This document shows, piece by piece, positions 878-24,106 of a DNA stretch of 49,930 nt; position 1 is the first letter of the stretch, and each line of letters begins with the position of its first letter. The stretch comes from Desulfobacterium sp. (GTDB lineage: Bacteria; Desulfobacterota; Desulfobacteria; Desulfobacterales; Desulfobacteraceae), in NCBI GenBank assembly GCA_016342325.1, contig JAEINR010000043.1:1-49930 (forward strand). Direction: 5' to 3'. The notes beneath the pieces were generated by a model. It made no database searches. It worked only from the letters and a program-made list of their open reading frames with translations, and was not told where the DNA came from. The position numbers and the translations under genes were made by a program.

Positions 878-1858
878 ATGCTCATACATGCGTTTCTTCT
901 TGCGTTCGGGTTTGCCCTGCTTCTGGGCGGTGGAGACCTCCTTGTCAGAGGGGCCTCGGCTTTGGCCGAAACCTTTGGGATTCCACCCCTTGTAATCGGT
1001 CTGACGGTCGTGGCCTTCGGGACCAGCGCACCGGAACTTTCCGTTAATCTTATGGCTGCTTTTCAAGGCAATACGGAAATTTCCTTTGGTAATATCATCG
1101 GTTCCAATATCGCAAATATCGGGTTGATCATCGGCGTCTGCGCAATAATGAAACCCCTGGCGATCGAAGGGGTTGTCATAACCCGAGAAATCCCCATGAT
1201 GGTGCTTGCCTCCCTGGTGGCCCTGGTGACAGGAATGGATCTGTTACTTCGTGATGTTTCAAATCGCTTTGATCGTTCGGACGGTCTTGTCTTTCTTCTC
1301 ATATTTTGTGTTTTCCTGTTTTATACCATCGGCGATGTGATCAGTAAAAGAAAGACAGACCCGCTTGTTCAGCAAGCGGAAGAAATCTATGAGCGAAAAA
1401 GGTCCGGGAAAACAATCCATAACCTGTTCCTGTTCATTTTAGGTCTTATTTTCCTTGTCTTTGGCGGGAAAGTGGCTGTTGATGCCGCCGTGGTCATTGC
1501 GGAATTGCTCAATGTGCCGCGGGTGATCATCGGGCTGACGGTTCTGGCCATCGGCACCAGCCTGCCTGAACTTGTCACGTCCGTCATCGCCACCCGGAAA
1601 GGGCAAACAGATATGGCCATTGGCAATGTGGTTGGCTCCAATATCTTTAACCTGCTGTTTGTCAACGGTATCTGCTCAACAGTGAGGCCCATTTCCGTGC
1701 CGGCATCCGGGGGCGTTGAAGACCTTGTCATGATGGTGTTTCTTTCAATTGTTCTGTTACCGCTTTGTATTTCGGACAATCGGAAAATAGTCCGTCTGGA
1801 AGGGGTCTTACTTTTAGTCCTGTACCTGGGGTTCAATCTTTGGCGAATTTTGGGGTAA
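878..1858 (+). CDS. CaCA-family sodium/calcium (cation) antiporter
   Basis: 326 residues with about ten membrane segments and the two alpha repeats that define the calcium/cation antiporter family. Repeat 1 (about residues 38-78) contains G-T-S-A-P-E-L and G-N-I-I-G-S-N-I; repeat 2 (about 215-255) contains G-T-S-L-P-E-L and G-N-V-V-G-S-N-I. The paired acidic residues in these motifs bind the cation. The length fits YrbG-type bacterial exchangers. An AGGGAGA precedes the ATG by a few bases. It lies 40 bases before the sulfur operon on the same strand and could be co-transcribed, though no functional link with sulfur is evident. The substrate ion (Ca2+ or another divalent ion) cannot be told from sequence. 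Confidence 0.9.
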   Translation: MLIHAFLLAFGFALLLGGGDLLVRGASALAETFGIPPLVIGLTVVAFGTSAPELSVNLMAAFQGNTEISFGNIIGSNIANIGLIIGVCAIMKPLAIEGVVITREIPMMVLASLVALVTGMDLLLRDVSNRFDRSDGLVFLLIFCVFLFYTIGDVISKRKTDPLVQQAEEIYERKRSGKTIHNLFLFILGLIFLVFGGKVAVDAAVVIAELLNVPRVIIGLTVLAIGTSLPELVTSVIATRKGQTDMAIGNVVGSNIFNLLFVNGICSTVRPISVPASGGVEDLVMMVFLSIVLLPLCISDNRKIVRLEGVLLLVLYLGFNLWRILG

Positions 1859-1897: not shown

Positions 1898-3907
1898 ATG
1901 AAGCAAAGCATTCTTTTTCGGCTTGCGGTTTGCATGCTGTTCGTGTTGTGCACAGGACTTCTGTTTCAATACCCGGCCTGTGGTTCTGCCATCAAGGATA
2001 CGGAATCCGCCACCCACGGCGATACGGCAGCCACCCAGGTTATTGTTAAAACGTATGAATTTGATGGGGTCAAACTGGTGCAGTTCAATCTTGCGGTACT
2101 GTCCCACTATTCTTATATGGTGGTGAGTCGCGGAGAGGCCCTGGTGGTTGATCCGGATCGCGATATTCAGGTGTACCTTGACACGGCCAAAGCAGAAGGA
2201 TGGACGGTCAAAGGGGTATTTCTCACCCATTCAAATGCCGATTTCGTGGCCGGTCATACGGAATTTTCAAAGCGGGTCGGCTGTCCCATCTATCAGAGCC
2301 GGGACAGCGGCGCCGTTTACGATATCACCGCCCTTTCCCATGGGCAGTCGATCCCTTGGGGAGAGGTCAGGCTGCAATTTTTGGGTACCCCCGGCCATAC
2401 CCCCGACGGCATGAGCGTTCTGGTCTTTGGCAAGGCAGACACGGTCACGCCAAAGGCGATCCTTACCGGCGACACCCTGTTCGTGGGATCCATCGGCCGA
2501 CCTGATCTCATGGGCGGGAGCGTTCCGGCCGCAACCCTGGCCGGTATGGCTTACGATACCTGGACAGACACCCTTGCCAAACTTGACGATGGTGTGGTGG
2601 TGCTGCCTGCCCATGGTGCCGGATCCCTTTGCGGGGCTCATCTCAGGGACGAGCCGTCGTCCACCATTGGTACGGAACGGGCAACCAATCCCTATCTCCG
2701 GCATAAGGGCAGAAATGATTTTATCACTGCCGTGCTCGAGGGGCTGCCCGATGCGCCGCAATATTTCAAGCATAATGCAAGGATGAACCGGGAGGGGCCC
2801 GCTTTGGTGGATTGGAACGGTCAAGTGCCGAAAATCTCTCCCCTGGATGCATCGCTGTCGGATATATCCAGGCTTTATATCGTTGATTTGCGGGATGCCC
2901 AAAGTTTTGCCGCAGGCCACATTCCCAATGGGATTAATATCGGCCTGCGGGGACGCCTGGAGACATGGGCCGGCATCATTGTGCCCTGGGGCAGTAGGGT
3001 CGTTCTTTGCGGCAGTGACGAGGAGGTGAAAGAGGCTTGCTTCCGCCTGCACCGGGTCGGCTATGAAGTGGACGGAGCCATTTCCCTGGAGGCGTGGAAA
3101 GGGGCGAAACTGGCTGTATCCGCCAACCGGCAGGTTTCTCCCCAGGAACTCTACAACCAGGTCCAGGCGGGGATTGGTCCGGTGATTGTGGACGTGCGCC
3201 TGCCGAGCGAGTGGATGGGACTCAGGATCGGAAATGTGTTGAACATGCCTCTCAATCAATTGAGCGATCTTGCTGTGAAACTCGATCCTGAGCAGCCGGT
3301 GGTAACGGTTTGCAATTCGGCCTATCGAAGCAGCATGGGGATCGGTTTGCTGGAACGGCTAGGGTTCCGGCAGGTGGCAAGCATGACAGGGGGGGGCGAG
3401 GCCTGGATCGAGGCGGGATTGCCCGTGCGCCAGCCAACGGCTCCGGGTGGTGCCCAGGCACAGGCCAGGCGGGTGATCAAACTGCCGGACCGGGTCGATC
3501 CGGCCCAGGTCAAACGCATGCTCATGGATCAGCCCGGAACCTTTGACCTGGTGGACATCCGGCCGATCGACCATTTCAGGGACTATAGCCTGCCGGGGTC
3601 ACGCAACGTGGATATTGCAGATCTGATAAATGATTCGGTTTGGCTGACCGGCGCGGGACCGCTTGTGATCGTTGATCGTGACGGGTCCCTGGCCATGGTC
3701 GCCGGAGGCATCCTGTCCCAGAAAACAGACAGACAGATCAAGGTGCTTTTTGGTGGCCTGGAAGCCTACTGGAACCTGTCGGAGATGGGAGACCCGGTCA
3801 AAGCCGTTCCCATTGTCCCTGGTGTGCAGTCACCTGTTCCGGCAGTACCGGTCCAGCCGGGTGGGCAGACGCCTGAACCATTGAAAAAGAAAAGCGCGGG
3901 GTGCTGA
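1898..3907 (+). CDS. Exported persulfide-dioxygenase-like metallo-hydrolase fused to three rhodanese domains
   Basis: 669 residues. Residues 1-31 look like a Sec signal, placing the protein in the periplasm. Residues 45-300 are a metallo-beta-lactamase fold of the ETHE1/BLH persulfide dioxygenase group, with T110-H111, D115, H167 (GTPGHTPDG), D192 (LTGD) and H239 (LPAHG), plus the family's linker motif around Y289-F290. The second His of the HxHxDH motif is Asn113 and the last is Phe116; ETHE1 is known to bind iron through three ligands equivalent to H111, H167 and D192, so iron binding may survive. Three rhodanese domains follow: about 325-405 (candidate Cys371), 415-510 (Cys472 in CNSAYRS) and 530-630 (Asp593 where Cys is expected, so probably inactive). 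It is followed directly by two YeeE-type permease genes, suggesting periplasmic handling of persulfide or thiosulfate sulfur. An AAGGAG precedes the ATG. Confidence 0.85.
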   Translation: MKQSILFRLAVCMLFVLCTGLLFQYPACGSAIKDTESATHGDTAATQVIVKTYEFDGVKLVQFNLAVLSHYSYMVVSRGEALVVDPDRDIQVYLDTAKAEGWTVKGVFLTHSNADFVAGHTEFSKRVGCPIYQSRDSGAVYDITALSHGQSIPWGEVRLQFLGTPGHTPDGMSVLVFGKADTVTPKAILTGDTLFVGSIGRPDLMGGSVPAATLAGMAYDTWTDTLAKLDDGVVVLPAHGAGSLCGAHLRDEPSSTIGTERATNPYLRHKGRNDFITAVLEGLPDAPQYFKHNARMNREGPALVDWNGQVPKISPLDASLSDISRLYIVDLRDAQSFAAGHIPNGINIGLRGRLETWAGIIVPWGSRVVLCGSDEEVKEACFRLHRVGYEVDGAISLEAWKGAKLAVSANRQVSPQELYNQVQAGIGPVIVDVRLPSEWMGLRIGNVLNMPLNQLSDLAVKLDPEQPVVTVCNSAYRSSMGIGLLERLGFRQVASMTGGGEAWIEAGLPVRQPTAPGGAQAQARRVIKLPDRVDPAQVKRMLMDQPGTFDLVDIRPIDHFRDYSLPGSRNVDIADLINDSVWLTGAGPLVIVDRDGSLAMVAGGILSQKTDRQIKVLFGGLEAYWNLSEMGDPVKAVPIVPGVQSPVPAVPVQPGGQTPEPLKKKSAGC

Positions 3908-3909
3908 CC

Positions 3910-4443
3910 ATGACTGAAAAAACGACCCATGAAATTAAGGCTGAAAAGGGGGGCATGAACCCCTATTACGCCGGCGTGCTGCTCGGGGCCACCCTTTTAT
4001 TCTCCTATCTGATCCTTGGTGCCGGGCTTGGGGCCTCGTCGGGCATCGCCCGGGTGGGGGCGCAGGCGGCATTGCTGTTTTCCCCGGCTCGGACCCTGGC
4101 CAGCGACTATTTTGGGAGCTGGGGCCCCCACCCCCTTCGATACTATCTTGCGTTCATGCTGGCCGGCGTTTTTTTTGGGGGACTCATTTCCGCATTGCTG
4201 GCCGGCCGCTGGGATTTTTCCGTGGAACGCGGCGGGAAATGCCCACCCGGAAAGCGGCTTCTGCTTGCCCTGGTCGGGGGAGTGCTCGCAGGATTCGCAA
4301 GCCGCCTTGCCAACGGATGCACTTCAGGCCAGGCCCTGTCAGGAAGCGCTCTGCTTTTAACGGGAAGCCTGCTCTTTCTGATATTCCTCTTCGCGGGGGG
4401 GTACGCCGTGGCCTGGTTTGTAAGGAGACAATGGGATGATTGA
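3910..4443 (+). CDS. YeeE/YedE-family sulfur transporter half (PmpA-like)
   Basis: About 177 residues, four to five membrane helices, with the N-G-C-T-S-G-Q conserved motif of the YeeE/YedE (TsuA) family, whose cysteines pass thiosulfate-type sulfur through the membrane. E. coli TsuA is about 350 residues and contains two such halves; here the halves are separate genes, as in PmpA/PmpB pairs. I start at the ATG at 3910, just after the upstream stop; a GTG at 3901 overlapping that stop is the alternative. Its end overlaps the next gene by 8 bases, so the two are translationally coupled. Substrate is inferred from family and from the sulfur-handling neighbours. Confidence 0.8.
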   Translation: MTEKTTHEIKAEKGGMNPYYAGVLLGATLLFSYLILGAGLGASSGIARVGAQAALLFSPARTLASDYFGSWGPHPLRYYLAFMLAGVFFGGLISALLAGRWDFSVERGGKCPPGKRLLLALVGGVLAGFASRLANGCTSGQALSGSALLLTGSLLFLIFLFAGGYAVAWFVRRQWDD

Positions 4444-6439
4444 AACGTTTTTTGCAAACGGAACCCTGGATACCCCGGCTGCGTTCCTGACTAGTCTGAT
4501 CATTGGCATCCTTTTTGGCGTGGCGCTGGAACAGGCGGGGTTCGGGAGTTCCCGGCGTCTGTCAGGCATCTTTTATTTCCGGGACATGACGGTGCTTAAG
4601 GTGATGTTTACCGCGGTTGTTGTGGCCATGCTCGGCATTTGTTATGCCAGGGCCTTTGGCTGGGTGACCATGGAGAACCTTTATTCTCTGCATACCTTCT
4701 ATGGGGCGCAGATCGTGGGAGGATTGATATTCGGCGCCGGGTTTGTCATGGCTGGTTGGTGCCCGGGTACCGGCGCTGTGGGCATGGCATCAGGAAAGGT
4801 GGATGCCTTGGTGTTTCTCCTGGGCGGTGCCGTCGGCAGTATCCTCTACAACGAAGTATCTCCTGTCTTGGGGTGGTTGACCTCGGCAGACCGGGGGGTT
4901 GTATTTGCCTATGACAGTCTTGGGGTTTCCCGGGCCGTTTTTGTCTTTTCCTTTACGGTGATCGCTGTGGGGTGTTTCTGGGGCGCGGAGTATGTCGAAA
5001 GAAAAGGGCAGGGCAGGGGGGAGCACTTGGGCACGCCCTTCCTCAAGGCCTTCAGCGTGATACTTGTGGTGGGGGCCTTTGGCCTGCTGGCCGTGCCGGA
5101 AGCGCCCTTGGTGGCGTCATCGGGTTCTTCAGCTGTCCTGCAGGAGGCCGGGGTGCTGACGGGGCTGGAGGCCGGGTCGGATCATATGGAACCTTGGGAG
5201 CTGGCAGATCGTCTGCTTGCCGGTGACCGGTCGATGGTGCTCGTGGATATCCGTACACCAGGTGAATTTGCTAAATTTCATATCCGGTCCGCCCTTAACA
5301 TTGCGGTGACGGCGCTGCCGGACCTTCTTGCGCCCCATAAAAACAATGGCTTGATCGTGCTCTATTCCAACGGCATGACCCATCCGGCCCAGGTGCGTGA
5401 CAGCCTGTTTCGGTTGGGTTTCGGCAATGTATGTTTCTTGACGGATGGGCTGAAAGGCTTTCTGGACGCGTGCCTTAAACCGGTATCGTTGAGGGCTGAG
5501 CCGGTTTCGCCTGTGTTGGCAGTCAAAATCAATGCATGGCGGGCATTTTTCCTTGCACCGGTGCTTGCTGGGGAGACAACGGCTGCCGCTGCCGCAACCG
5601 TCCCGGACCTTGGTTCGCTGACCCTTCCCGGAATGGTCGAAACCCAGTGGCTGAATATGAATATGGGAACCCCCGGGGTAAAGATTGTGGATCTTCGCCC
5701 CCAGGCCGAGTACAACGCCGGCCATATTCCAGGATCCATGAGCCTGAACCTGGAAAGTCTGAGGGGCCTGGTAAACGGTCTGCCATCGACCCTGCTGCCC
5801 GCGGTAATGCTGGCGGAACATTTTTCTATGATGGGGGTTCGACCGACGGATTTGGTGGTGTTGGTCTGCACGGATAAGCGCCAGGATGGGACCCTGGTCG
5901 GCATGGCATGTGAGCGGTTACGGCATGGAAATTATGCGTTGCTGCGGGGCGGGTTTTCCAAGTGGGTGGCTGAAAAGCATGCCCTGGACACAATCCTTCC
6001 CTCAATCGAACCGTTCCAGTATCCGGTTCCGGATCGTCCGGAAACATTTACTGTCACCGCAAAAGAGGTATTGGCCGCCATGGGCAGGCCCGGGACGGTT
6101 ATTCTTGATGTCAGGCCGGGGGATTACTTTACCGGTAAGAAACAGGATGAAGCAAGGGGAGGGCACATCCCCGGGGCCATCAATCGTCCCTTTAACGAGG
6201 ATGTGACAAAGACCGACACCTATACTGAAATCAAGTCCGTTGATGCCCTTGAAAGCGCATACGGGAAGCTCATTCCGACAAAAAAGACACCACTCATTGT
6301 TCACTGCCGCACAGGTCACCAAGCAAGTCAGACATTTTTCATTCTGGTGCGGCTTCTTGGTTACACGGACGTCAGTTGGTATGACGCAGGCTGGACCGAG
6401 TGGGCCGCCCGACCGGAATTTCCGGTGGCAAAACCATAA
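4436..6439 (+). CDS. YeeE/YedE transporter half fused to three rhodanese domains
   Basis: 667 residues. The first 225 form about six membrane segments with the second YeeE half signature, including G-W-C-P-G-T-G (Cys109). Three rhodanese-like domains follow: about 250-345 (VDIRTPGEF, but Ser311 where the catalytic Cys would be), 395-510 (VDLRPQAEY with AGHIPGS; Cys478) and 540-660 (LDVRPGDYF with GGHIPGA; Cys624 in CRTGHQAS, a well-formed active loop). At least one domain is thus probably a working sulfurtransferase. Fusion of a sulfur permease to a triple rhodanese is unusual and suggests direct hand-over of sulfane sulfur to or from the channel. Which side of the membrane the rhodaneses face cannot be settled by eye. 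Confidence 0.8.
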   Translation: MIETFFANGTLDTPAAFLTSLIIGILFGVALEQAGFGSSRRLSGIFYFRDMTVLKVMFTAVVVAMLGICYARAFGWVTMENLYSLHTFYGAQIVGGLIFGAGFVMAGWCPGTGAVGMASGKVDALVFLLGGAVGSILYNEVSPVLGWLTSADRGVVFAYDSLGVSRAVFVFSFTVIAVGCFWGAEYVERKGQGRGEHLGTPFLKAFSVILVVGAFGLLAVPEAPLVASSGSSAVLQEAGVLTGLEAGSDHMEPWELADRLLAGDRSMVLVDIRTPGEFAKFHIRSALNIAVTALPDLLAPHKNNGLIVLYSNGMTHPAQVRDSLFRLGFGNVCFLTDGLKGFLDACLKPVSLRAEPVSPVLAVKINAWRAFFLAPVLAGETTAAAAATVPDLGSLTLPGMVETQWLNMNMGTPGVKIVDLRPQAEYNAGHIPGSMSLNLESLRGLVNGLPSTLLPAVMLAEHFSMMGVRPTDLVVLVCTDKRQDGTLVGMACERLRHGNYALLRGGFSKWVAEKHALDTILPSIEPFQYPVPDRPETFTVTAKEVLAAMGRPGTVILDVRPGDYFTGKKQDEARGGHIPGAINRPFNEDVTKTDTYTEIKSVDALESAYGKLIPTKKTPLIVHCRTGHQASQTFFILVRLLGYTDVSWYDAGWTEWAARPEFPVAKP

Positions 6440-10847: not shown

Positions 10848-12551
10848 TTAGATCCAGATCTCAATCTTAAAAAACCTGAAGAACAGGAAGAAAAGAGTGA
10901 TGGCAAGAACCCATTTGAGCTGAATTTCGCTGAACATGGTCTGGAGGCGGCTTCCCAGCATACCGCCGGCAAAACCACCGATGATGATGGAGATGGCAAG
11001 CCAGAGATCCGGAAGGTAGCCGTTGAGAAGGTAACCGATAAAGGAACCGATACTTGAAAAGCAGGTACCGACAAGGGCGATGGGAACAGCAACGTACATG
11101 GGAAGTGCACCAAGGCTTGTCATGGCGGGTACGAGGAGGAAACCGCCGCCGATACCGAAACTCCGGGAGACAATACCGATACCCAGGCCGAGGATTCCGA
11201 AGAGAAGGGGATTGATCCTGAACTCTTCACCCCAGAACTTGAATCTGTAGTCTGTGAGGCTTCCCTTGACTGGTTCGATGGAACCCATCTCTGCGGCAGA
11301 ACCGTCTTTCTTGGCCTTGGCAACGGCTGCGTTGAACTTCTGGACCATGGCCTTGATGTTCTTTCTCTTCTCCATGGCCTTGGGGGTTAGCTCCTGGAGG
11401 GTTTTGAATCCCATGATCACAACCAGGATGGCGAGCCACTCTTTGTAGGTCTTCATGGGCAGGTACTCGATGGCGTACTGGCCAAGCCATACGGAACCGA
11501 TAAAGATACCCACACCAAAGGAGAGGCCCACGGGCCATGCAACCCTGCGCTCTTTTACGGCAAAGCGGTAGAAGGATCCCAGGGGGGAGAACAGGGTGAG
11601 GGCGATGTTGGAAGGACGAAGAACGTTGGCCGCATTGATACCGACGGGGCCGGCCGTTTGTACGACCATTACCTGGAAGGCAGCCATGAGCATTCCGCCT
11701 GCGGCACCGATCATGGAGAAGTAGGCACCCACAAGGATGGCTCCGATGATGATCCAGAGGGGGTTCATGTACCGGCCGCCCTTGTCGAGCCAAAATCCTT
11801 TGGGCTCAAGTTTGTAGTCACCGGCAGCAGCGCCGTTTACAAACACGTTGAACTCGGTGTCCGGGGGGGTGTGGCGGTAGGTCTTGAAAGAGGCGGTGAA
11901 CTTACCCGTGGTCTTGTCAAGGTCGATTTTTGTGCCCTTGTCCCAGTAGCTGCCGGATGTGCCATGGTCGGCAAGAACGCTTCTGGAGAAGATGGTTACC
12001 TTGCCCACACGGGTCAGCTCTTTAGTAATGGTGTTGATACCGTAGCTTGACTCGTGGGCGTATTTGTAGAAGTTCCACTCGGCTTCGTTGTTGATAGCGG
12101 CAAGCATGCTCTTTGTATCTGCGCCCAGGTCGTTCCACTTGTTGAGCTTGAACATGGTGGTGCTGTAAAGACCGCGTTTTCCCTTCTGGGTGAAGAAGGA
12201 GGGACCGCCGAACTTTTTCTTGACAACCTTACCGAGTTTTTCAGGCTTTGAGGTCAGCATGTAGTAGAGGACCGGGATGCTGGTGTCCGTGGTGAACCCT
12301 TTTTTCTCGGCATCCTTGGCAAGTTGCTTGACCTCGGTCTTTCCGTTGGTGTCCTTGGGGGCGAACCTGTCTTTGGCTGCAACGGTCAAGAACAGGTCTG
12401 CTCCGGGGGCGATAGTGCCGGTCACTGTGACCACATCACCCGCGCTGTAGGTTGATGCGGAAATGGTGCCCGTGTTTTGAGCCATGGCAGGCATGGCGCA
12501 AAACAAGAGAACCATTGAAAAAACAAATAATCGAGTCACAATTTGTTTCAT
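10848..12551 (-). CDS. TauE/SafE-family transporter with an extra periplasmic N-terminal domain
   Basis: 567 residues from the ATG at 12551 (AAGGAGA before it). A Sec signal ending around AMAQ (residue 25) precedes a domain of about 240 residues predicted to be outside, then a TauE/SafE body of about eight helices with the family's glycine-rich segments (GAAGGMLMAAFQV; GIGGGFLLVPAM). The body carries a charged insert of about 60 residues (around 415-475). TauE/SafE proteins export sulfite, sulfoacetate or related anions in other bacteria; the substrate here is unknown. The added secreted domain is not part of the usual 250-residue transporter. First gene of an operon ending in a two-component system, behind a sigma-54-type promoter. 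Confidence 0.85.
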   Translation of the reverse strand: MKQIVTRLFVFSMVLLFCAMPAMAQNTGTISASTYSAGDVVTVTGTIAPGADLFLTVAAKDRFAPKDTNGKTEVKQLAKDAEKKGFTTDTSIPVLYYMLTSKPEKLGKVVKKKFGGPSFFTQKGKRGLYSTTMFKLNKWNDLGADTKSMLAAINNEAEWNFYKYAHESSYGINTITKELTRVGKVTIFSRSVLADHGTSGSYWDKGTKIDLDKTTGKFTASFKTYRHTPPDTEFNVFVNGAAAGDYKLEPKGFWLDKGGRYMNPLWIIIGAILVGAYFSMIGAAGGMLMAAFQVMVVQTAGPVGINAANVLRPSNIALTLFSPLGSFYRFAVKERRVAWPVGLSFGVGIFIGSVWLGQYAIEYLPMKTYKEWLAILVVIMGFKTLQELTPKAMEKRKNIKAMVQKFNAAVAKAKKDGSAAEMGSIEPVKGSLTDYRFKFWGEEFRINPLLFGILGLGIGIVSRSFGIGGGFLLVPAMTSLGALPMYVAVPIALVGTCFSSIGSFIGYLLNGYLPDLWLAISIIIGGFAGGMLGSRLQTMFSEIQLKWVLAITLFFLFFRFFKIEIWI

Positions 12552-12693
12552 ATCTCTTCTCCTTAAACGTAATTGATTGCTGCGCCCCTCTCCAGGCTTG
12601 ATTTGTCTGGAACCAAGGCACAAATATTATAATCCGCTAACAGGGAGCGTTTGCCGGCCCCTGTTAAAAACAAAAATTTAAGAAAGAGCTCAA

Positions 12694-18010: not shown

Positions 18011-19516
18011 ATGTCCAGTTCAACAAGTAGTTCAAAACCCTTTGATCCCACGGTCTTCTGGGTTTCGGCCTCGGTAACCGTTCTTTTTGTGTTATGGGCC
18101 GTCCTGTTTCCGGAAAACATGGGTTCAACCATCAATGCCGTGTTTGGCTGGACCACAACTTATTGGGGATGGCTTTATCTCTTAACCGCATTTCTTCTAG
18201 TTATTGGCTGTTTTGTCCTCATGGGGAGGAAATACGGATCCATTAAGCTGGGGCTGGCCCACGATCGTCCCGAGTTTTCTAACTTCTCCTGGTTTGCCAT
18301 GCTGTTCGGGTCTGCCATCGCAGCGGGCATCGTGTTCTGGGGACCTGCAGAGCCCGCCTACCATTACATGAGCCCGCCACCCTATTTCGGGGGAGAGGCA
18401 ATCACCCCCGGGGCCGGGGCCAATGCCATGACCTATTCGTTTTTCCACTGGGGACTCAGTGCCTGGGCCATCTACGCCATGCTCACCGTTGCCCTGGGCC
18501 ATGCCTGCTTTACCAATAACCTTCCCCTGCGATTCTCCAGCGCCTTTTACTATGTGATCGGTGATCGCATCCACGGCGTCTGGGGCAAGGTCCTGGACAT
18601 CTTTGCTGTATTTGCAACCCTTGGGGGCCTTGCCACCACCACGGGACTTGTGGCGCTCCAGCTCTCCTCCGGCCTCAAGTTTCAGTACGGGATCGAGCTT
18701 GGCAGCGGCGGTATCTATATCATCATCGGGATTCTCACCGCCATCTTCACCTTTTCAGTCTATTCAGGGCTTGAAAAGGGGATCAAGCTCATGGGCGATA
18801 TCAATATGTGGGTGTTTGTTGCGGTGTGGTTTTTCATCCTTGTGTTCGGCCCCACGATTTTCCTCATTAACCTTACGACAAACGCCATCGGCCAATATCT
18901 CCTCAACTTCATTCCCATGAGTCTCTTTACCGCTCCAGGAGTCGAGGGGAACTGGATCGGCAGCTGGACCGTGTTTTACTGGGCCTGGTGGATGAGCTGG
19001 GCTCCCTTTGTTGCGGTATTCATCGCAAGAATCTCCAAGGGCAGAACCATCCGTGAGACCGTGGCCGCCACTCTGCTCCTGCCGACCCTGGGTAATTTCC
19101 TCTGGTACGGGGTCGTGGGGGGATCGGGAATCAGCTTTGACGTCACTGCTACATTGAAGGAGCACGGGGTTGAGAGCGCCATCTTTGCCATTGCCCAGCA
19201 CCTGCCCATGACCGGCCTTCTTGCCGTTGTGCTGATATTCCTCATTGCCACCTTTTTTCTCACCAGCGCAAACTCCGCTGCCCTCGCCCTTGCCATGTTT
19301 GTTTCGGGCCACGAAACCCCCGGCAAGAACCTGAGGGCCTTCTGGGGCATCGCCCTTGGTGCTGTTGCCGCCGTTCTTTCCGGCACGGGAAGCCTCAAGG
19401 CGATCCAGACGGCATCCATTGCAACGGCGTTTCCCCTGATGTTTCTGCTGCTGTTGGTTCTATTCGGAACCTTCAGGGGGTTGAACCGATCCATTAGCGA
19501 TAATGAAAAACAATAG
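18011..19516 (+). CDS. BCCT-family betaine/carnitine/choline transporter (first copy)
   Basis: 501 residues, about 12 helices. Family marks are present: F-W-G-P-A-E-P-A-Y-H-Y near residue 112, F-F-H-W-G-L-S-A-W near 145, and the tryptophan-rich Y-W-A-W-W-M-S-W-A-P-F-V segment near 325. AAGGAGAG precedes the ATG. First gene behind the sigma-54 promoter; the MttB-family methyltransferase follows 43 bases later, so its cargo is probably the methylated amine degraded by this operon (glycine betaine, carnitine, proline betaine or similar). Lack of a long C-terminal extension argues against an osmosensing role of the BetP kind. Confidence 0.93.
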   Translation: MSSSTSSSKPFDPTVFWVSASVTVLFVLWAVLFPENMGSTINAVFGWTTTYWGWLYLLTAFLLVIGCFVLMGRKYGSIKLGLAHDRPEFSNFSWFAMLFGSAIAAGIVFWGPAEPAYHYMSPPPYFGGEAITPGAGANAMTYSFFHWGLSAWAIYAMLTVALGHACFTNNLPLRFSSAFYYVIGDRIHGVWGKVLDIFAVFATLGGLATTTGLVALQLSSGLKFQYGIELGSGGIYIIIGILTAIFTFSVYSGLEKGIKLMGDINMWVFVAVWFFILVFGPTIFLINLTTNAIGQYLLNFIPMSLFTAPGVEGNWIGSWTVFYWAWWMSWAPFVAVFIARISKGRTIRETVAATLLLPTLGNFLWYGVVGGSGISFDVTATLKEHGVESAIFAIAQHLPMTGLLAVVLIFLIATFFLTSANSAALALAMFVSGHETPGKNLRAFWGIALGAVAAVLSGTGSLKAIQTASIATAFPLMFLLLLVLFGTFRGLNRSISDNEKQ

Positions 19517-19559
19517 GTCCCATTAAAAATCAGACCAGACCAATAAAAAGGAGAACACC

Positions 19560-20981
19560 ATGTACGATAGAATGCAGGAATTAGGCACGGAACAGATCAC
19601 CAGGATCCACGATGCATCCATGGATATCCTGAAAAACACCGGGGTGATCTTTAACGAGGACGAGGCCCTGGAGATCTTCAAAAAAAATGGTTTCAGGGTC
19701 GATGGAAAGATTGTCTTTTTTGAGGAAAAGGATGTGGAACAGGCCCTCAAGACCGTGCCGAAACGGTTCAGGGTGTATGCCCGGAATCCTGAAAATAATG
19801 TTGATATCGGGGAAGACGATTTTGTGTTTGTTCCCGGTTATGGTGCCCCCTACGTGATCACCCCCCAGGGGGATCAGCGGGAGGCCACCATGGAGGATTA
19901 CGACAACTTCTGCAAGTTGGTTCACACCTCCAAGCACATTAACATGAACGGTTGGATGATGGTGGAGCCCTCGGATATGCCCCATGAGACCGTGCACCTG
20001 GACCTGAATCTCTCCAATATCCTCCTGTGCGACAAGGCCTTCATGGGAAGTCCCGTGTCGCGAAAGGCGGCCGTGGAGGGTCTTGAGATGGCCGCCATTG
20101 CCTGGGGCGGAAAGGAGAATATTATGGACAAGGCCGTTTCGGTTTCCCTGATCAACTCCCTTTCCCCGTTGCAGTTTTCCGATGAGATGGCAGGCTCTCT
20201 TATCGAGCTTGCCCGCCACGGTCAAGCCTGTGTCATTGCTTCCCTGATCATGGCCGGCGCCTCCGGACCTGTGACCATGGACGGGGTTGCGACCCTCCAG
20301 AACGCCGAGATACTGGCCGGTATCACCCTGTCCCAGCTGGTGCGCCAGGGGGCGCCTGTTATCTATGGTTCCACCTCCTCGGCCATGGATATGCGGACAG
20401 GTGCCCTGAGCATCGGGGCGCCGGAGCTTTCCATGAATGTCTCGTTCACCGCCCAGATGGCAAGGTTCTACAACCTGCCCTCCCGCTCCGGTGGCGGACT
20501 GACTGACTCCCTCTTCCCGGACGCCCAGGCAGGGATCGAGTCCGCCCTGGCACTTTCGACGGCGGCAAGGAACGGGATCAACTTCATTCTTCATTCCTGC
20601 GGCATCCTGGGTTCCTACATTGCCATGAGTTACGAAAAATTTCTGCTGGACGAGGAGACCTGCGGGCTGATCCGCCACATGTTCAGGCCCACCGCCGTAA
20701 GCGATGACTCCATCGATGTGGAGATGATAAAAACGGTTGGCATCGGCGGCCAGTACCTGACCCATCCAAAGACCTTCAAGCTTTGCAGGACCGAGCTGTA
20801 CTCGACCGATCTCATGAGTCGCATGAATTACGATGCCTGGACAAAGGCGGGCAAAAAACGGATCGACCAGGTGGCCGAGGACAAGGTGAGTCAGCGTCTT
20901 GCCACCTATGAGCGGCCGGATATCGATCCCGGGATCGAGAAGGCTCTGACCGCCTATGTTGCGGCAAAGAAAAAAGGTTAG
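19560..20981 (+). CDS. MttB-superfamily (non-pyrrolysine) quaternary-amine methyltransferase
   Basis: 473 residues, homologous along its length to trimethylamine methyltransferase MttB. There is no in-frame amber codon inside the gene; TAG appears only as the terminal stop. That places it with the non-Pyl members such as glycine betaine, proline betaine and carnitine methyltransferases, which move a methyl group from the quaternary amine to a Co(I) corrinoid protein. The partners follow in the same operon: corrinoid protein and methyl-H4folate methyltransferase. A glycine-rich S-R-S-G-G-G-L-T-D-S segment sits near residue 304. AAAGGAG precedes the ATG. Glycine betaine is the likeliest substrate but the sequence alone does not decide. 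Confidence 0.88.
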   Translation: MYDRMQELGTEQITRIHDASMDILKNTGVIFNEDEALEIFKKNGFRVDGKIVFFEEKDVEQALKTVPKRFRVYARNPENNVDIGEDDFVFVPGYGAPYVITPQGDQREATMEDYDNFCKLVHTSKHINMNGWMMVEPSDMPHETVHLDLNLSNILLCDKAFMGSPVSRKAAVEGLEMAAIAWGGKENIMDKAVSVSLINSLSPLQFSDEMAGSLIELARHGQACVIASLIMAGASGPVTMDGVATLQNAEILAGITLSQLVRQGAPVIYGSTSSAMDMRTGALSIGAPELSMNVSFTAQMARFYNLPSRSGGGLTDSLFPDAQAGIESALALSTAARNGINFILHSCGILGSYIAMSYEKFLLDEETCGLIRHMFRPTAVSDDSIDVEMIKTVGIGGQYLTHPKTFKLCRTELYSTDLMSRMNYDAWTKAGKKRIDQVAEDKVSQRLATYERPDIDPGIEKALTAYVAAKKKG

Positions 20982-21042
20982 GAGAAACGGCTAGCGGAAA
21001 AACGAGCAGGGCGTGAAACCTCAACAGGACAAAGGAGATAAG

Positions 21043-22602
21043 ATGGGCAAGGGGAAGCAGATGGAAGATTTAATCAGGAAATTGCTGGGCAATCACCTGG
21101 ATATCCGGGTTTTTTACGGGGCAACCCTTCTAGTGCTTCCCTTCATCCTTGTGGGGGGGCTCTTCCCAGATCTCTTGGCAGCCGTCTCCAACAAAGTGCT
21201 TGCCTATCTGACCCAATCCTGGAGCTGGCTCTACCTTGGGAGTGTGAGCTTCTTTGCCCTTGTCTGCCTGGTAATCGCCATCTCTCCCTTTGGGAAGGTG
21301 CGCCTGGGCCGGGATGATGAAGTGCCCGAACACAGCAGAATCAGCTGGTTTTCCATGCTCTTTTCCGCAGGCATGGGTATCGGGCTTGTGTTCTGGGCCA
21401 TTGCCGAGCCCATTTACCATTTCACAGGACCCCCCATGGGAACGGGCAACTCTGCAGAATCTGCCCGGATGGCCTTTGAGATCTTCTTCTTCCACTGGGG
21501 GATCCATGCCTGGGGCACCTATGTGGCCGTGGGACTTCCCCTTGCCTATTTTCAGTTTCGCAGGGGCAAGCCCGGGGTGATTTCCCAGTGCATCGCCCCC
21601 CTATTTGGCGGGAGCGACGCCATGGGGGGCAAGGCCGGCACCCTGGTGGACATCCTTGCGGTCTGGGCCACCGTCATGGGGGTGGTTACCTCCCTGGGCC
21701 TGGGGGCCCTCCAGATCACAAGCGGACTGGCCCACTCTGCCGGGATTCCCGGGACCACCCTTTCCACCACAATTATTATTTCCGTGATCACTGTCATGTT
21801 CATCGCCTCGGCCCTGAGCGGGGTGAAGCGGGGGATCAAGTTTCTCTCCCTATTGAATGTCACCCTGATGCTGGTGATGCTTGGCTTTTTCGCCCTGTAC
21901 GGTCCCTTTGGGTACCTGGTCAGGACCTTTCTCTTGGGGTTTGGGGATTATCTCAGGGAGCTTTTACCCCTGTCCACGAGTTTCACGCTCTTTGACAACC
22001 TGGCCTGGACCCGATCCTGGACCGTGTTTTACTGGGCCTGGTGGATCGCCTGGGCGCCCTTTGTGGGGGCCTTTATCGCAACCATCTCACGGGGCAGGAC
22101 CATCCGGGAGTTTGTACTGGTGGTGATGATCCTTCCGGTGATCTTCTCCTTTATCTTTGCAAGTTTCCTCGGGGGAACGGCCATCCACCTGGAACTGTTC
22201 CAGGGCATTGCCATTGGAGAGATCGTGAGCCAAAGCGTTGAGGTGGCTTTGTTTGAAACCTTGAAACACCTTCCGTTTTACGGCGTACTGGCCTTTCTTG
22301 CCAATGTGTTGATCGCATCGTTTTTCATCACATCGGCAGATTCGGCCACCTATGTGATCACCCGGTTCTCCACCGGCGGAAGGGGCGCCGAGAACGGGAA
22401 AATACGCCGGCGGCTCATCATATTCTGGGGCGTTCTACTGGGCGGACTTGCCGTGGTGCTGATTTATTCAGGCGGGCTGAAGGCGCTACAGACCGCATCC
22501 ATTGTCGGCGCATTTCCATTTATTTTTGTTATGTACATGCTGCTTGCGTCAACCATCAAAGATCTTTTTAAGCACAACAAACCAATCAAGAAAAATAATT
22601 AA
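21043..22602 (+). CDS. BCCT-family transporter (second copy)
   Basis: 519 residues from the ATG at 21043, which has AAAGGAGATAAG in front; a GTG at 21013 is an inferior start. About 12 helices with F-W-A-I-A-E-P-I-Y-H-F, F-F-H-W-G-I-H-A-W and the Y-W-A-W-W-I-A-W-A-P-F-V motif. It is clearly diverged from the first carrier of the operon (different substrate-loop residues: A-I-A-E-P versus G-P-A-E-P), so the two may differ in substrate or affinity, for example one importing betaine and one handling the demethylated product. Lies between the methyltransferase and the corrinoid protein. Confidence 0.92.
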   Translation: MGKGKQMEDLIRKLLGNHLDIRVFYGATLLVLPFILVGGLFPDLLAAVSNKVLAYLTQSWSWLYLGSVSFFALVCLVIAISPFGKVRLGRDDEVPEHSRISWFSMLFSAGMGIGLVFWAIAEPIYHFTGPPMGTGNSAESARMAFEIFFFHWGIHAWGTYVAVGLPLAYFQFRRGKPGVISQCIAPLFGGSDAMGGKAGTLVDILAVWATVMGVVTSLGLGALQITSGLAHSAGIPGTTLSTTIIISVITVMFIASALSGVKRGIKFLSLLNVTLMLVMLGFFALYGPFGYLVRTFLLGFGDYLRELLPLSTSFTLFDNLAWTRSWTVFYWAWWIAWAPFVGAFIATISRGRTIREFVLVVMILPVIFSFIFASFLGGTAIHLELFQGIAIGEIVSQSVEVALFETLKHLPFYGVLAFLANVLIASFFITSADSATYVITRFSTGGRGAENGKIRRRLIIFWGVLLGGLAVVLIYSGGLKALQTASIVGAFPFIFVMYMLLASTIKDLFKHNKPIKKNN

Positions 22603-22617
22603 CATGGAGGAATAAAC

Positions 22618-23250
22618 ATGTCCGATCTAAAAACAATCACAGAGACACTGTTGACAGGGGATGGGGAAAAAGTTGCAGAGCTGACACAGGCGGCCCTTGA
22701 TGCAGGGGTTTCAGCAAAGGATATCCTTGACCAGGCACTGATCGCGGGTATGGACATCGTGGGCGCACGCATGGAGTCCGGGGAGATGTTTATTCCCGAG
22801 GTGCTCATGTCTGCCCAGGCCATGGGAGGCGCCGTTGAAATATTGAAACCCCTTCTTTCCGAAGAGGATTCCGCAGGCGTCGGCAAGGTGGTCCTTGGAA
22901 CCGTTAAGGGCGATCTCCACGATATCGGTAAGAATCTTGTTTCCATGATGCTGGAGAGCGCCGGATTTGAGGTGATCAACATGGGGGTCGATGTGGATCC
23001 CGACGCCTTTATCAAGGCGATTAAGGATAACGATGCCGACATCCTTGCCCTGTCCGCCCTCTTGACCACCACCATGCCCATGATGGCCCAGACCATCAAG
23101 AGCGTTGAAGAGAGCGGGTTGAGGGACAAGATCAAGATCCTTGTGGGCGGGGCGCCGGTGAACCAGAGCTATGCCGATGAGATCGGTGCGGACGGCTATG
23201 CGCCGGATGCCGGTTCCGCAAGCAAGCTTGCCAAGAGCCTTATGGCCTGA
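22618..23250 (+). CDS. Corrinoid (cobalamin-binding) methyl-carrier protein
   Basis: 210 residues in two parts: a four-helix cap (about 1-85) and a Rossmann-like B12 domain with D-L-H-D-I-G-K-N (D-x-H-x-x-G; His is the lower cobalt ligand) near residue 101, a G-V-D-V switch and a late G-G-A-P-V-N. Length and motifs match MtgC/MttC/MtmC-type carriers. It accepts the methyl group from the MttB-family enzyme and hands it to the pterin methyltransferase encoded next. GGAGGAA precedes the ATG, 15 bases after the second carrier gene. No RamA-type reductive activator is present in this window, so it must be elsewhere. Confidence 0.92.
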   Translation: MSDLKTITETLLTGDGEKVAELTQAALDAGVSAKDILDQALIAGMDIVGARMESGEMFIPEVLMSAQAMGGAVEILKPLLSEEDSAGVGKVVLGTVKGDLHDIGKNLVSMMLESAGFEVINMGVDVDPDAFIKAIKDNDADILALSALLTTTMPMMAQTIKSVEESGLRDKIKILVGGAPVNQSYADEIGADGYAPDAGSASKLAKSLMA

Positions 23251-23305
23251 TCGAAATGATGTTTGCATTACTTGTTACGGTAAAAAATATTAACGGAGGA
23301 AACCG

Positions 23306-24106
23306 ATGTTCACAGTCATTGGAGAGAGAATCAACACCACCCTTAAAAAGGTGCAGGCGGCCGTTGCAGACAGGGACGACGCCTACATAAAGGATGACGT
23401 AAAAAAACAGACCGAGGCCGGGGCCACCTACATCGATGTTAATGCCGGGGCCAGGATCGGCCATGAAGAGGCGGATATGCGCTGGCTCCTCAAGGTGGTT
23501 CAGGAGGCGACAGACCTGCCGTTGTGCCTTGACAGCCCCGACCCGGCCATCCTGGAGATGGCCTATGGCATGGTGGACAAGACCCCCATGGTCAACTCCA
23601 TCAGCCTGGAGAAGGAGCGATTCGATGCCATGATTCCCTTTCTAAAGGGAAAGGAGTGCAAGATCATCGCCCTCTGCATGGATGATTCCGGCATGCCCAA
23701 GAGCTTTGAGGATATTGTGGCCCGGGCCAAGAGTATTGTCCAGGAGTTGGAGAACATAGGGATGAAGCGGGAGGATATCTTTATCGACCCCCTGATCCAG
23801 CCCATGAGCGTGGACAGCCAGAACGGGATGATGGTGATGAAGGCTGTAAAGACCATCATGACCGAAATCGAAGGGGTTCACACCACCGGCGGGTTGTCCA
23901 ACATTTCCTATGGGCTTCCCCAGCGCAAGATCATCAACCGGAACTTTCTTGTGATGATGATGGCCCACGGGTTTGACGCCGCCATCATGGATCCCCTTGA
24001 CAAGGATATCATGGCTGTGCTCAGGACTTCCGAGATGCTCAAGGGTGAAGACAACTTCTGCATGAACTACCTCAAGGCTGTCAGGGCTGGCAATATCAAG
24101 GCGTAA
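23306..24106 (+). CDS. Methyltetrahydrofolate:corrinoid methyltransferase (MtgA/MtvA-like)
   Basis: 266 residues, a pterin-binding TIM barrel of the AcsE/MtrH/MetH type. Typical features: F-T-V-I-G-E-R-I-N-T-T at the start, Y-I-D-V-N-A-G-A-R near residue 42, L-C-L-D-S-P-D near 74, and G-L-S-N-I-S-Y-G-L-P near 196. It transfers the methyl group from the corrinoid carrier to tetrahydrofolate, linking demethylation to the Wood-Ljungdahl pathway for oxidation. Last gene of the operon; its stop codon is the first base triplet of the direct repeat described below and is followed by a terminator hairpin. Confidence 0.9.
   Translation: MFTVIGERINTTLKKVQAAVADRDDAYIKDDVKKQTEAGATYIDVNAGARIGHEEADMRWLLKVVQEATDLPLCLDSPDPAILEMAYGMVDKTPMVNSISLEKERFDAMIPFLKGKECKIIALCMDDSGMPKSFEDIVARAKSIVQELENIGMKREDIFIDPLIQPMSVDSQNGMMVMKAVKTIMTEIEGVHTTGGLSNISYGLPQRKIINRNFLVMMMAHGFDAAIMDPLDKDIMAVLRTSEMLKGEDNFCMNYLKAVRAGNIKA

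Follow-up and report, generated by a model that had tools for sequence, protein, structure and literature searches.

Background

It is poorly understood how sulfane sulfur can pass the inner membrane and not be lost as a reactive small molecule, as the abstract of PMC11582611 notes for sulfur import. Several described systems share parts with a three-gene locus near the start of a 49,930-nucleotide stretch of Desulfobacterium sp. DNA (contig JAEINR010000043.1 of assembly GCA_016342325.1). This stretch, called the window below, is an entire contig (C168) of a 6.67 Mb genome. The locus encodes a metallo-beta-lactamase (MBL)-rhodanese protein with a C-terminal cysteine arm (gene 1) and two halves of a YeeE-type permease, Y1 and Y2, the second of which is fused to rhodanese domains. 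We propose that it is probably a self-contained periplasmic module for the relay and import of sulfane sulfur, in which the arm would act as the persulfide carrier to the split channel.

The split permeases PmpA/PmpB (YedE1/YedE2) are two half-YeeE proteins with one conserved Cys each, and are often linked to persulfide dioxygenase (PDO) genes (excerpts of PMC11582611 and PMC10812762). Y2 corresponds to the N-terminal half and Y1 to the C-terminal half; unlike PmpA/PmpB, Y2 has two extra transmembrane (TM) helices and three fused rhodaneses predicted to be periplasmic, and the arm protein is encoded upstream in all 75 of the 80 loci compared here that have upstream DNA. TsuA (YeeE) and TsuB (YeeD) share with the module the channel fold and relay cysteines 2 and 3, whereas the module channel lacks the first Cys and its partner is probably periplasmic and not TusA-like. 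YeeD has been called the "fourth cysteine" on the cytoplasmic side (excerpt of PMC11073785), which the arm would mirror on the opposite side of the membrane. SoxY is a periplasmic carrier with a Cys on a swinging arm (excerpt of PMC11237559), and persulfidated SoxYZ has been proposed to feed the YeeE-type channel SoxT1A (excerpt of PMC11582611). The same role is proposed here for the arm, but the carrier fold is rhodanese-like rather than SoxY, and the channel is split and bears its own sulfurtransferases.

Gene 1 resembles CstB, a type III persulfide dioxygenase-rhodanese (3r2u, 3tp9), with MBL, pseudo-rhodanese and rhodanese in the same order; in contrast to CstB it is predicted to be exported, has an extra Asp-loop rhodanese and the Cys arm, and lacks the MBL part in some relatives. 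Among tandem thiosulfate sulfurtransferases (1uar, 3hwi) and the three-domain YnjE/EanB proteins, Y2 residues about 394-665 correspond to a two-domain TST with Cys in the last domain, here joined in one chain with a permease half and one more rhodanese that lacks Cys. Split YeeE beside PDO genes (excerpt of PMC10812762) and CstB-like enzymes are thus already known. Searches of the open-licence PMC literature found no description of a PF04143-rhodanese fusion or of the Cys arm, and we regard the module as a split YeeE/PmpAB system whose partner is of a new type.

Results and discussion

A predicted exported protein with an invariant terminal cysteine

Four plus-strand genes open the window (878-1858, 1898-3907, Y1 with its stop at 4443, and 4436-6439), and the last three form the module. 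Y1 starts at GTG 3901 or, more likely, at ATG 3910.

1898-3907, plus strand: gene 1, predicted exported CstB-like MBL protein with three rhodanese domains and a Cys arm, 669 aa (PF00753 and three PF00581)
3794-3907, plus strand: predicted disordered Pro/Ala-rich arm of gene 1, ending KKKSAGC-stop, Cys669 at 3902-3904 (from terminal Cys conservation and pLDDT)
3910-4443, plus strand: gene 2 (Y1), PmpA-like C-terminal half of YeeE (PF04143 positions 165-309)
4436-6439, plus strand: gene 3 (Y2), PmpB-like N-terminal YeeE half fused to three rhodanese domains, 667 aa (8-base overlap with the end of Y1)

The last residue of gene 1 is Cys in 76 of 76 copies (the conservation alignments, which all include the window, have 76 rows for gene 1, 79 for Y1 and 81 for Y2). 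For comparison, among 657 other open reading frames (ORFs) of 150 aa or more in these loci, a terminal Cys is seen in 3 and a terminal Gly-Cys in 1; these are crude ORFs that include Y1 and Y2. The arm extends 38-78 residues after rhodanese domain 3, is rich in Pro (26%) and Ala (21%), is predicted to be disordered (pLDDT under 50 at residues 631-669) and closes with a basic patch followed by (S/P)-(A/V/G)-G-C-stop. Since the codons of the tail vary synonymously and all three stops are used, the constraint appears to lie on the protein level, and a nucleotide signal for a downstream start or a recoded stop was rejected. A common C-terminal chemistry was rejected as well, given the ORF background, the occurrence of a degenerate tail DNA pattern only once in the own genome (reversed control 0), and a tail-less paralogue in locus L032 (10035-11477). 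The latter is a second MBL-rhodanese protein, encoded on the other strand immediately behind the module, and lacks both domain 3 and the tail. The hydrophobicity profile contains no hydrophobic sorting helix near the C-terminus of gene 1.

The window protein matches only PF00753 and PF00581, and those of the short arm proteins described below that were run against Pfam match only PF00581, so that a SoxY domain (PF13501) is seen in neither; a PF13501 search of the own genome, in which the controls stayed silent, carries no weight. A Cys on a flexible C-terminal arm of a predicted exported protein is shared with SoxY by analogy, not homology. An earlier note, made from the letters of the window alone, had proposed that persulfide passes by direct contact between enzyme, relay domains and channel. 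The invariant arm, which it overlooked, would offer a better relay than contact between fixed domains.

A split channel without the first relay cysteine

PF04143 matches the module in two halves (72.1 and 66.1 bits against a cut-off of 27), as expected of a split PmpAB-type permease. The membrane part of Y2 and the predicted signal peptide of gene 1 are placed as follows.

4475-5092, plus strand: Y2 membrane part, six predicted helices, residues 14-219; Cys109 (GWCPGT) at 4760-4762; Gly37 at the column of TsuA Cys22
1898-1990, plus strand: predicted signal peptide of gene 1, residues 1 to about 31, hydrophobic peak at residue 20

The second and third channel cysteines of YeeE/YedE are both present: Cys109 of Y2 in 81/81 rows, and Cys140 of Y1 (GCTSG, codon at 4318-4320; Cys140 from GTG 3901 is Cys137 from ATG 3910) in 79/79. 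A Y2 profile finds the TsuA structures 6leo (E 2.4e-4) and 8j4c (6.2e-4) and aligns to TsuA residues 4-117, and a Y1 profile of 5 rows aligns to residues 235-329 (8j4c E 0.0066, 6leo 0.17). The column of TsuA Cys22 is residue 37 of Y2, which is Gly in 59 and Ser in 22 of the 81 rows; this assignment is confirmed because the C22A construct 8j4c shows Ala there. In place of the three relay cysteines on one chain with about 9 TM helices that define TsuA, the module has two chains and Gly or Ser at the Cys22 column, and the NCBIfam TsuA model gives it 33.2 and 35.9 bits against a cut-off of 400.

The structural model of Y2 contains six membrane-length helices (pLDDT block means of 58-93 in the membrane part, pTM 0.48; the structure-prediction alignments had 46 rows, picked from 67 and 68 usable rows). 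By the Lys/Arg content of its loops, Y2 has its N-terminus and its rhodaneses on the outer side of the membrane and the loops near residues 33-52 and 192-201 on the inner side. A cytoplasmic YeeE C-terminus, which YeeE-YeeD fusions fit (excerpt of PMC11073785), also fits the RRQWDD end of Y1. Export of gene 1 is predicted from its N-terminal hydrophobic stretch and a modelled helix at residues 2-22, after which pLDDT falls under 50 at 24-41. We strongly infer this topology, and all six rhodanese domains and the MBL domain are most likely periplasmic.

Two conserved candidate active sites among six rhodanese domains

The earlier note had counted six rhodanese domains in two adjacent proteins. 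They are found in two uninterrupted ORFs with three PF00581 stretches each, Y1 lying between the two, and the residues that it singled out (Cys371, Cys472 and Asp593 of gene 1; Ser311, Cys478 and Cys624 of Y2) are at the positions that it gave.

2825-3103, plus strand: gene 1 rhodanese 1, pseudo-rhodanese, Cys371 not conserved (approximate limits from the model)
3137-3412, plus strand: gene 1 rhodanese 2, loop CNSAYRSS with Cys472 at 3311-3313 (PF00581 at 414-505)
3476-3793, plus strand: gene 1 rhodanese 3, Cys-less, invariant Asp593 in loop DRDG (approximate limits from the alignment)
5180-5470, plus strand: Y2 rhodanese 1, Cys-less, invariant Ser311 in loop YSNGMTH (approximate limits)
5615-6430, plus strand: Y2 rhodaneses 2 and 3, one tandem TST/MST-type sulfurtransferase, Cys624 (CRTGHQAS) at 6305-6307

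Only part of the proposed set of active cysteines is borne out. Cys472 occurs in 72/72 rows with a residue, and so does Cys624 (72/72, with a gap in nine rows where Y2 is cut, frameshifted or shorter), which agrees with active-site roles for both. A Cys stands at position 371 of gene 1 in 26 of the 71 rows with a residue there, and at position 478 of Y2 in 6 of 73; by this measure the two domains concerned are not conserved sulfurtransferases, and a relay of four rhodanese cysteines was rejected. Rhodaneses 2 and 3 of Y2 have the make-up of a tandem TST/MST, two rhodanese domains with the catalytic Cys loop in the second, and resemble 1uar (TMt 0.88) and 3hwi (TMt 0.89). The Cys-less loops are very conserved, with Asp593 in 76/76 and Ser311 in 81/81 rows, and may serve docking rather than catalysis; Cys346 of Y2 is kept in 70/81. 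The broader proposal of a periplasmic sulfane-sulfur relay beside a YeeE-type permease, built from active and Cys-less rhodaneses, is supported.

Gene order, coupling and spread

Two outcomes that would have undone the earlier note, an assembly or frameshift join between permease and rhodaneses and a lack of conserved order, did not occur. The Y2 frame is free of stops over 671 codons, and full-length relatives and conserved loci are found, which led us to reject a join. Full-length fusion relatives with 52-54% identity are present in 4 of 57 other genomes, with the same three genes in the same order in all 4, and a profile of five copies gives a full-length match in 10 of 395 genomes of the phylum, the own genome included. 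All 10 also have the arm protein. A scan of named genomes confirmed 423 of 468 candidates, the best 80 of which by Y2 similarity were kept as loci. Y2 matches reach query residue 660 or beyond in 71 of the 80, and the trio keeps its order in 75; the others (L042, L048, L051, L053, L085) are contig ends inside Y1/Y2 or just upstream of Y1. Y1 and Y2 overlap by 8 bases in 68 of 74 measured loci and by 4 bases in 6, which reads as a sign of tight translational coupling. Composition, order, conservation and coupling, the absence pattern of the parts and the missing first channel Cys can all be read directly from the sequences.

By record title, the loci carry eleven phylum labels, some of which may be wrong for metagenome-assembled genomes (MAGs): Thermodesulfobacteriota (Desulfobacterota), Planctomycetota, Lentisphaerota, Verrucomicrobiota, Kiritimatiellota, Pseudomonadota, Acidobacteriota, Omnitrophota, Hydrogenedentota, Auribacterota and Wallbacteria. 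In a Y2 tree of 77 rows (a quick method with SH-aLRT only, omitting the cut or frameshifted L085, L091, L094 and L099), the window groups with Verrucomicrobiota and Kiritimatiellota MAGs in a starred set that counts 8 rows. Its Y2 is 65-66% identical to copies from these groups versus 51-52% to Desulfobacula copies, so that transfer of a self-contained module is suggested, binning errors being possible. Plasmid carriage was rejected, as PLSDB gave no match at 1e-40. A larger conserved operon was rejected too: none of the neighbour clusters listed recurs within 1.5 kb in more than 4 of the 80 loci, as judged from crude ORF calls that are weak on high-GC contigs.

The CstB-like front end and its natural absence

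Gene 1 minus its last domain is a CstB-like protein: it has the MBL, pseudo-rhodanese and rhodanese domains in CstB order as well as the 2-His-1-Asp iron triad, and Foldseek returns 3tp9 (TMt 0.81) and 3r2u (TMt 0.82-0.85) at 27-33% identity.

2099-2614, plus strand: MBL domain of gene 1, residues 68-239; triad H111, H167 and D192 kept, N113 replacing His (PF00753)

The mononuclear-iron triad is kept almost throughout the gene 1 alignment (H111 in 70/71, H167 in 70/70, D192 in 70/70 rows), as is Cys245 at the MBL site (72/73 rows with a residue). The second His of HxHxD differs in the window. Its ETHE1 counterpart, His81, is predicted to bind persulfide, according to the excerpt of PMC6060420 from which the roles of the iron ligands are also taken; residue 113 is His in 66 of 71 rows and Asn in 5, namely the window, L025, L026, L028 and L100. 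The host genome contains both dsrA (605 bits) and a cytochrome bd oxidase (591 bits), and is therefore taken as a sulfate reducer that may meet O2. The earlier note had held oxygen use unlikely in an anaerobe and suggested that the MBL domain might have some other task. Such a task gains from Asn113 at the place of the persulfide His; the argument from oxygen loses by the kept triad and the bd oxidase.

The front end is missing from natural variants. Genes of about 180-220 aa stand in place of gene 1 in L031 (Desulforhabdus), L040 (Accumulibacter), L078 (Fundidesulfovibrio) and L079 (Desulfovibrionaceae); they consist of a signal-like N-terminus (judged by eye), the Asp-loop domain and the arm, without the MBL and two rhodaneses (Pfam was run on L040, L078 and G424). 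G424 has the same short gene, which retains the IKDS motif that the long forms have close to their N-terminus; it shares a genus code with G349, and the handles G349 and L031 look like one genome. On the Y2 tree the MBL-less state requires three changes (L042, L048, L051, L053 and L076 were left unscored), and because each sits at tips among MBL-bearing rows, losses seem the simpler reading. No close copy of the missing MBL-rhodanese part was found elsewhere in the genomes of the MBL-less forms (six handles, two apparently one genome): the best match was 43% over a fragment, and the L079 genome gave no match at all. A 422 aa MBL-rhodanese frame that lacks the tail is encoded separately in Accumulibacter. 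Arm and permease persist without the MBL in at least three lineages, so the MBL-rhodanese-rhodanese front end is, by this comparison, accessory.

This pattern bears on the idea of a detoxification operon around a periplasmic CstB-like persulfide dioxygenase, in which MBL and O2 would yield sulfite, the rhodanese would turn it into thiosulfate and the YeeE halves would move the thiosulfate. The conserved triad, the CstB-like and PDO structures as closest matches, the bd oxidase of the host and the known association of PDO with split YeeE (excerpt of PMC10812762, and genome G396 here) all fit it. We nevertheless consider it unlikely, since the MBL is absent from those lineages, which retain arm and permease, the host carries dsrA, Asn113 replaces the predicted persulfide-binding His in the window and four other loci, and the invariant arm is left unexplained.

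Other cysteine tails beside distant split YeeE pairs

A Cys-ended arm of another make was found in 12 of 17 genomes examined that hold distant split YeeE pairs. Y2 itself ends in DEGC in eight of them (G285, G326, G159, G239, G421, G384, G440, G055); the match there contains no rhodanese stretch and the protein continues past the membrane part (Pfam on G326 and G055 only), several of these ends having a further hydrophobic segment followed by a linker. G371 carries a Y2-rhodanese fusion (33% identity) that ends KGGCG. In G172 the gene next after Y1 and Y2 encodes 201 aa: the N-terminus is hydrophobic, the rhodanese is Cys-less and has the loop DKDG, and the tail, rich in Pro and Gly, closes with PGGCG. 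In G219 and G096, Y2 is followed immediately by an ORF for a 216 aa protein whose N-terminus is likewise hydrophobic and whose last residues are KGC. In the GGCG tails one Gly still follows the Cys, which is penultimate rather than terminal. Weak matches to the arm protein (E 2.8e-11 to 9.6e-9) occur in eight genomes, seven of them to rhodanese proteins without a terminal Cys, among these the CstB-like gene that adjoins the split YeeE pair of G396, and the eighth in G172. All but one of the eight DEGC genomes share a single family code (f78), so the 12 cases are not 12 independent events.

The occurrence of four tail makes (KKSAGC, DEGC, GGCG, KGC) in at least three positions argues that the Cys-tipped arm is a recurring partner of split YeeE rather than a peculiarity of one protein. 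As a tentative extension, which might or might not hold, split YeeE channels without the first TsuA Cys could commonly be fed by a periplasmic swinging Cys arm, present in trans or on a channel half. The carrier would here be a previously undescribed one, a Cys-less rhodanese with the KKSAGC tail, with DEGC, GGCG or KGC elsewhere, and the arrangement would be a general, repeatedly invented alternative to SoxYZ-SoxT.

Further features were noted at these distant loci. In L009 (10-504, minus strand) a second frame, of 165 aa and also ending GDDEGC, lies beside the DEGC-tailed Y2. The split-YeeE locus of G371 (L171 2925-5231, minus strand) adjoins a multihaem cytochrome/cytochrome b561 protein, and that of G172 (L172 1367-2464) an NrfD/polysulfide-reductase subunit. 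An in-frame TGA falls exactly at the Cys109 column of the distant Y2 in G172, G219 and G096 (L172, L131, L134), which suggests selenocysteine (Sec) at that channel position; a Sec-containing YeeE family (GUxSG) is listed in an excerpt of PMC13188914, and its Sec position looks like the other channel Cys, not Cys109.

Proposed mechanism and its alternatives

We propose that Y1 and Y2 are two YeeE-type channel halves, translated together through the 8-base overlap, and that the fused rhodaneses of Y2 come to lie in the periplasm through its two further TM helices. Cys472 and/or Cys624 would take up periplasmic sulfane sulfur (thiosulfate, polysulfide or a low-molecular persulfide) and pass it to the terminal Cys of the arm, a swinging-arm persulfide carrier. 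The constant core of gene 1 would be the Cys-less Asp-loop rhodanese-fold domain with the flexible arm ending KKSAGC, and the CstB-type front end, present in most lineages seen, would make, trim or oxidise the carried sulfur. The arm protein would dock through the two Cys-less rhodanese domains, with the Asp loop and the Ser loop, and the arm would present sulfur to the channel, in which Cys109 of Y2 and Cys140 of Y1 form the relay and the first Cys (TsuA Cys22) is missing. Loading of the arm with persulfide and hand-over to the channel are plausible steps; the inward direction of sulfur is the weakest part of the proposal.

Several observations weigh against this proposal. Five of the 17 distant pairs (G050, G057, G006, G044, G396) have no Cys-ended arm among the ORFs of at least 85 aa in the stretch examined, which in G396 covered only Y2 and the MBL gene; G396 is armless though a CstB-like gene adjoins its split YeeE pair. 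Because of these pairs, the arm is not obligatory for split YeeE. In L100, L102 and L104 the long gene 1 is kept and Y2 ends after its first rhodanese (Pfam: L100 and L104 only), so Cys624 is not essential everywhere; Y2 of L097 and L098 ends near residue 480, and that of L103 runs off the contig. What complete loci have in common is the arm protein, Y1, and the Y2 membrane half with the Ser-loop rhodanese. A full-length arm protein with the tail KKPVAGC stands without Y1 or Y2 beside it in G158 (L161 6750-8738), the eleventh of the 395 phylum genomes with an arm protein. Keeping the best 80 of 423 loci by Y2 similarity favours full fusions and puts 343 others outside the set. No conserved cytoplasmic sulfur acceptor was seen among the neighbours in crude ORF calls. 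Finally, the terminal Cys could have another role, as a structural residue, in metal binding or as a site of attachment.

This last thought can be extended to an arm that is a structural or targeting device, such as a membrane or partner tether or a disulfide or metal site, with Y1/Y2 and the rhodaneses working without it as a carrier. The basic KKK beside the Cys could bind lipid or a partner, and the armless pairs agree with a dispensable arm; the lack of a sorting helix, the placement of Cys exactly at the end in every copy and the recurrence beside split YeeE of unrelated tails (acidic DEGC, or GGCG), which a basic tether would not explain, make such a role distinctly unlikely. The reverse direction, in which cytoplasmic sulfane sulfur would be exported or vented to the periplasmic arm and rhodaneses, is compatible with the anatomy, which does not fix direction and has all sulfur-handling domains outside; it appears quite improbable in view of the characterised relatives TsuA, SoxT and YedE1E2, described as importers in excerpts of PMC11582611, PMC10812762 and PMC11073785. 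Selenium or another chalcogen as the real cargo is very improbable, for although Methanococcus maripaludis uses a YedE-like protein in the transport of selenium (excerpt of PMC11582611) and NCBIfam models of selenium YedE and ExtH match weakly, all these matches are far below the curated cut-offs and no recurrent selenium gene was recognised among the neighbour clusters listed.

Neighbouring genes

Directly upstream of the module in the window lies a sodium/calcium exchanger gene (878-1858); homologues come next after Y2 on its downstream side in L067 and L069, and one lies about 7.6 kb off in L092. In L030, L037, L047 and L058 one protein is encoded within 0.7 kb of the module, which we take to be cation-ATPase-like. 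Farther along the window, 10848-12623 encodes a TauE/SafE protein (PF01925) whose long N-terminal region looks exported; it matches magnetosome MamO weakly, at a score far short of the MamO cut-off. Two small membrane proteins of no clear family adjoin it. Two BCCT transporters, an MttB-family methyltransferase and a pterin-binding enzyme at 18011-24103 look like a betaine-type demethylation cluster.

Conclusions

Named isolates hold both forms of the module, with the MBL in Desulfoluna limicola ASN36 and Desulfoferrobacter suflitae DRH4 and without it in Desulforhabdus sp. TSK and Fundidesulfovibrio agrisoli SG106, and thus allow MBL-bearing and MBL-less forms to be compared. If the arm Cys is loaded with sulfur and feeds the channel, the module would be a compact, testable solution to the membrane crossing of sulfane sulfur under eleven phylum labels, including sulfate reducers and Planctomycetes, and YeeE channels would be able to take protein-bound sulfur rather than free anions.

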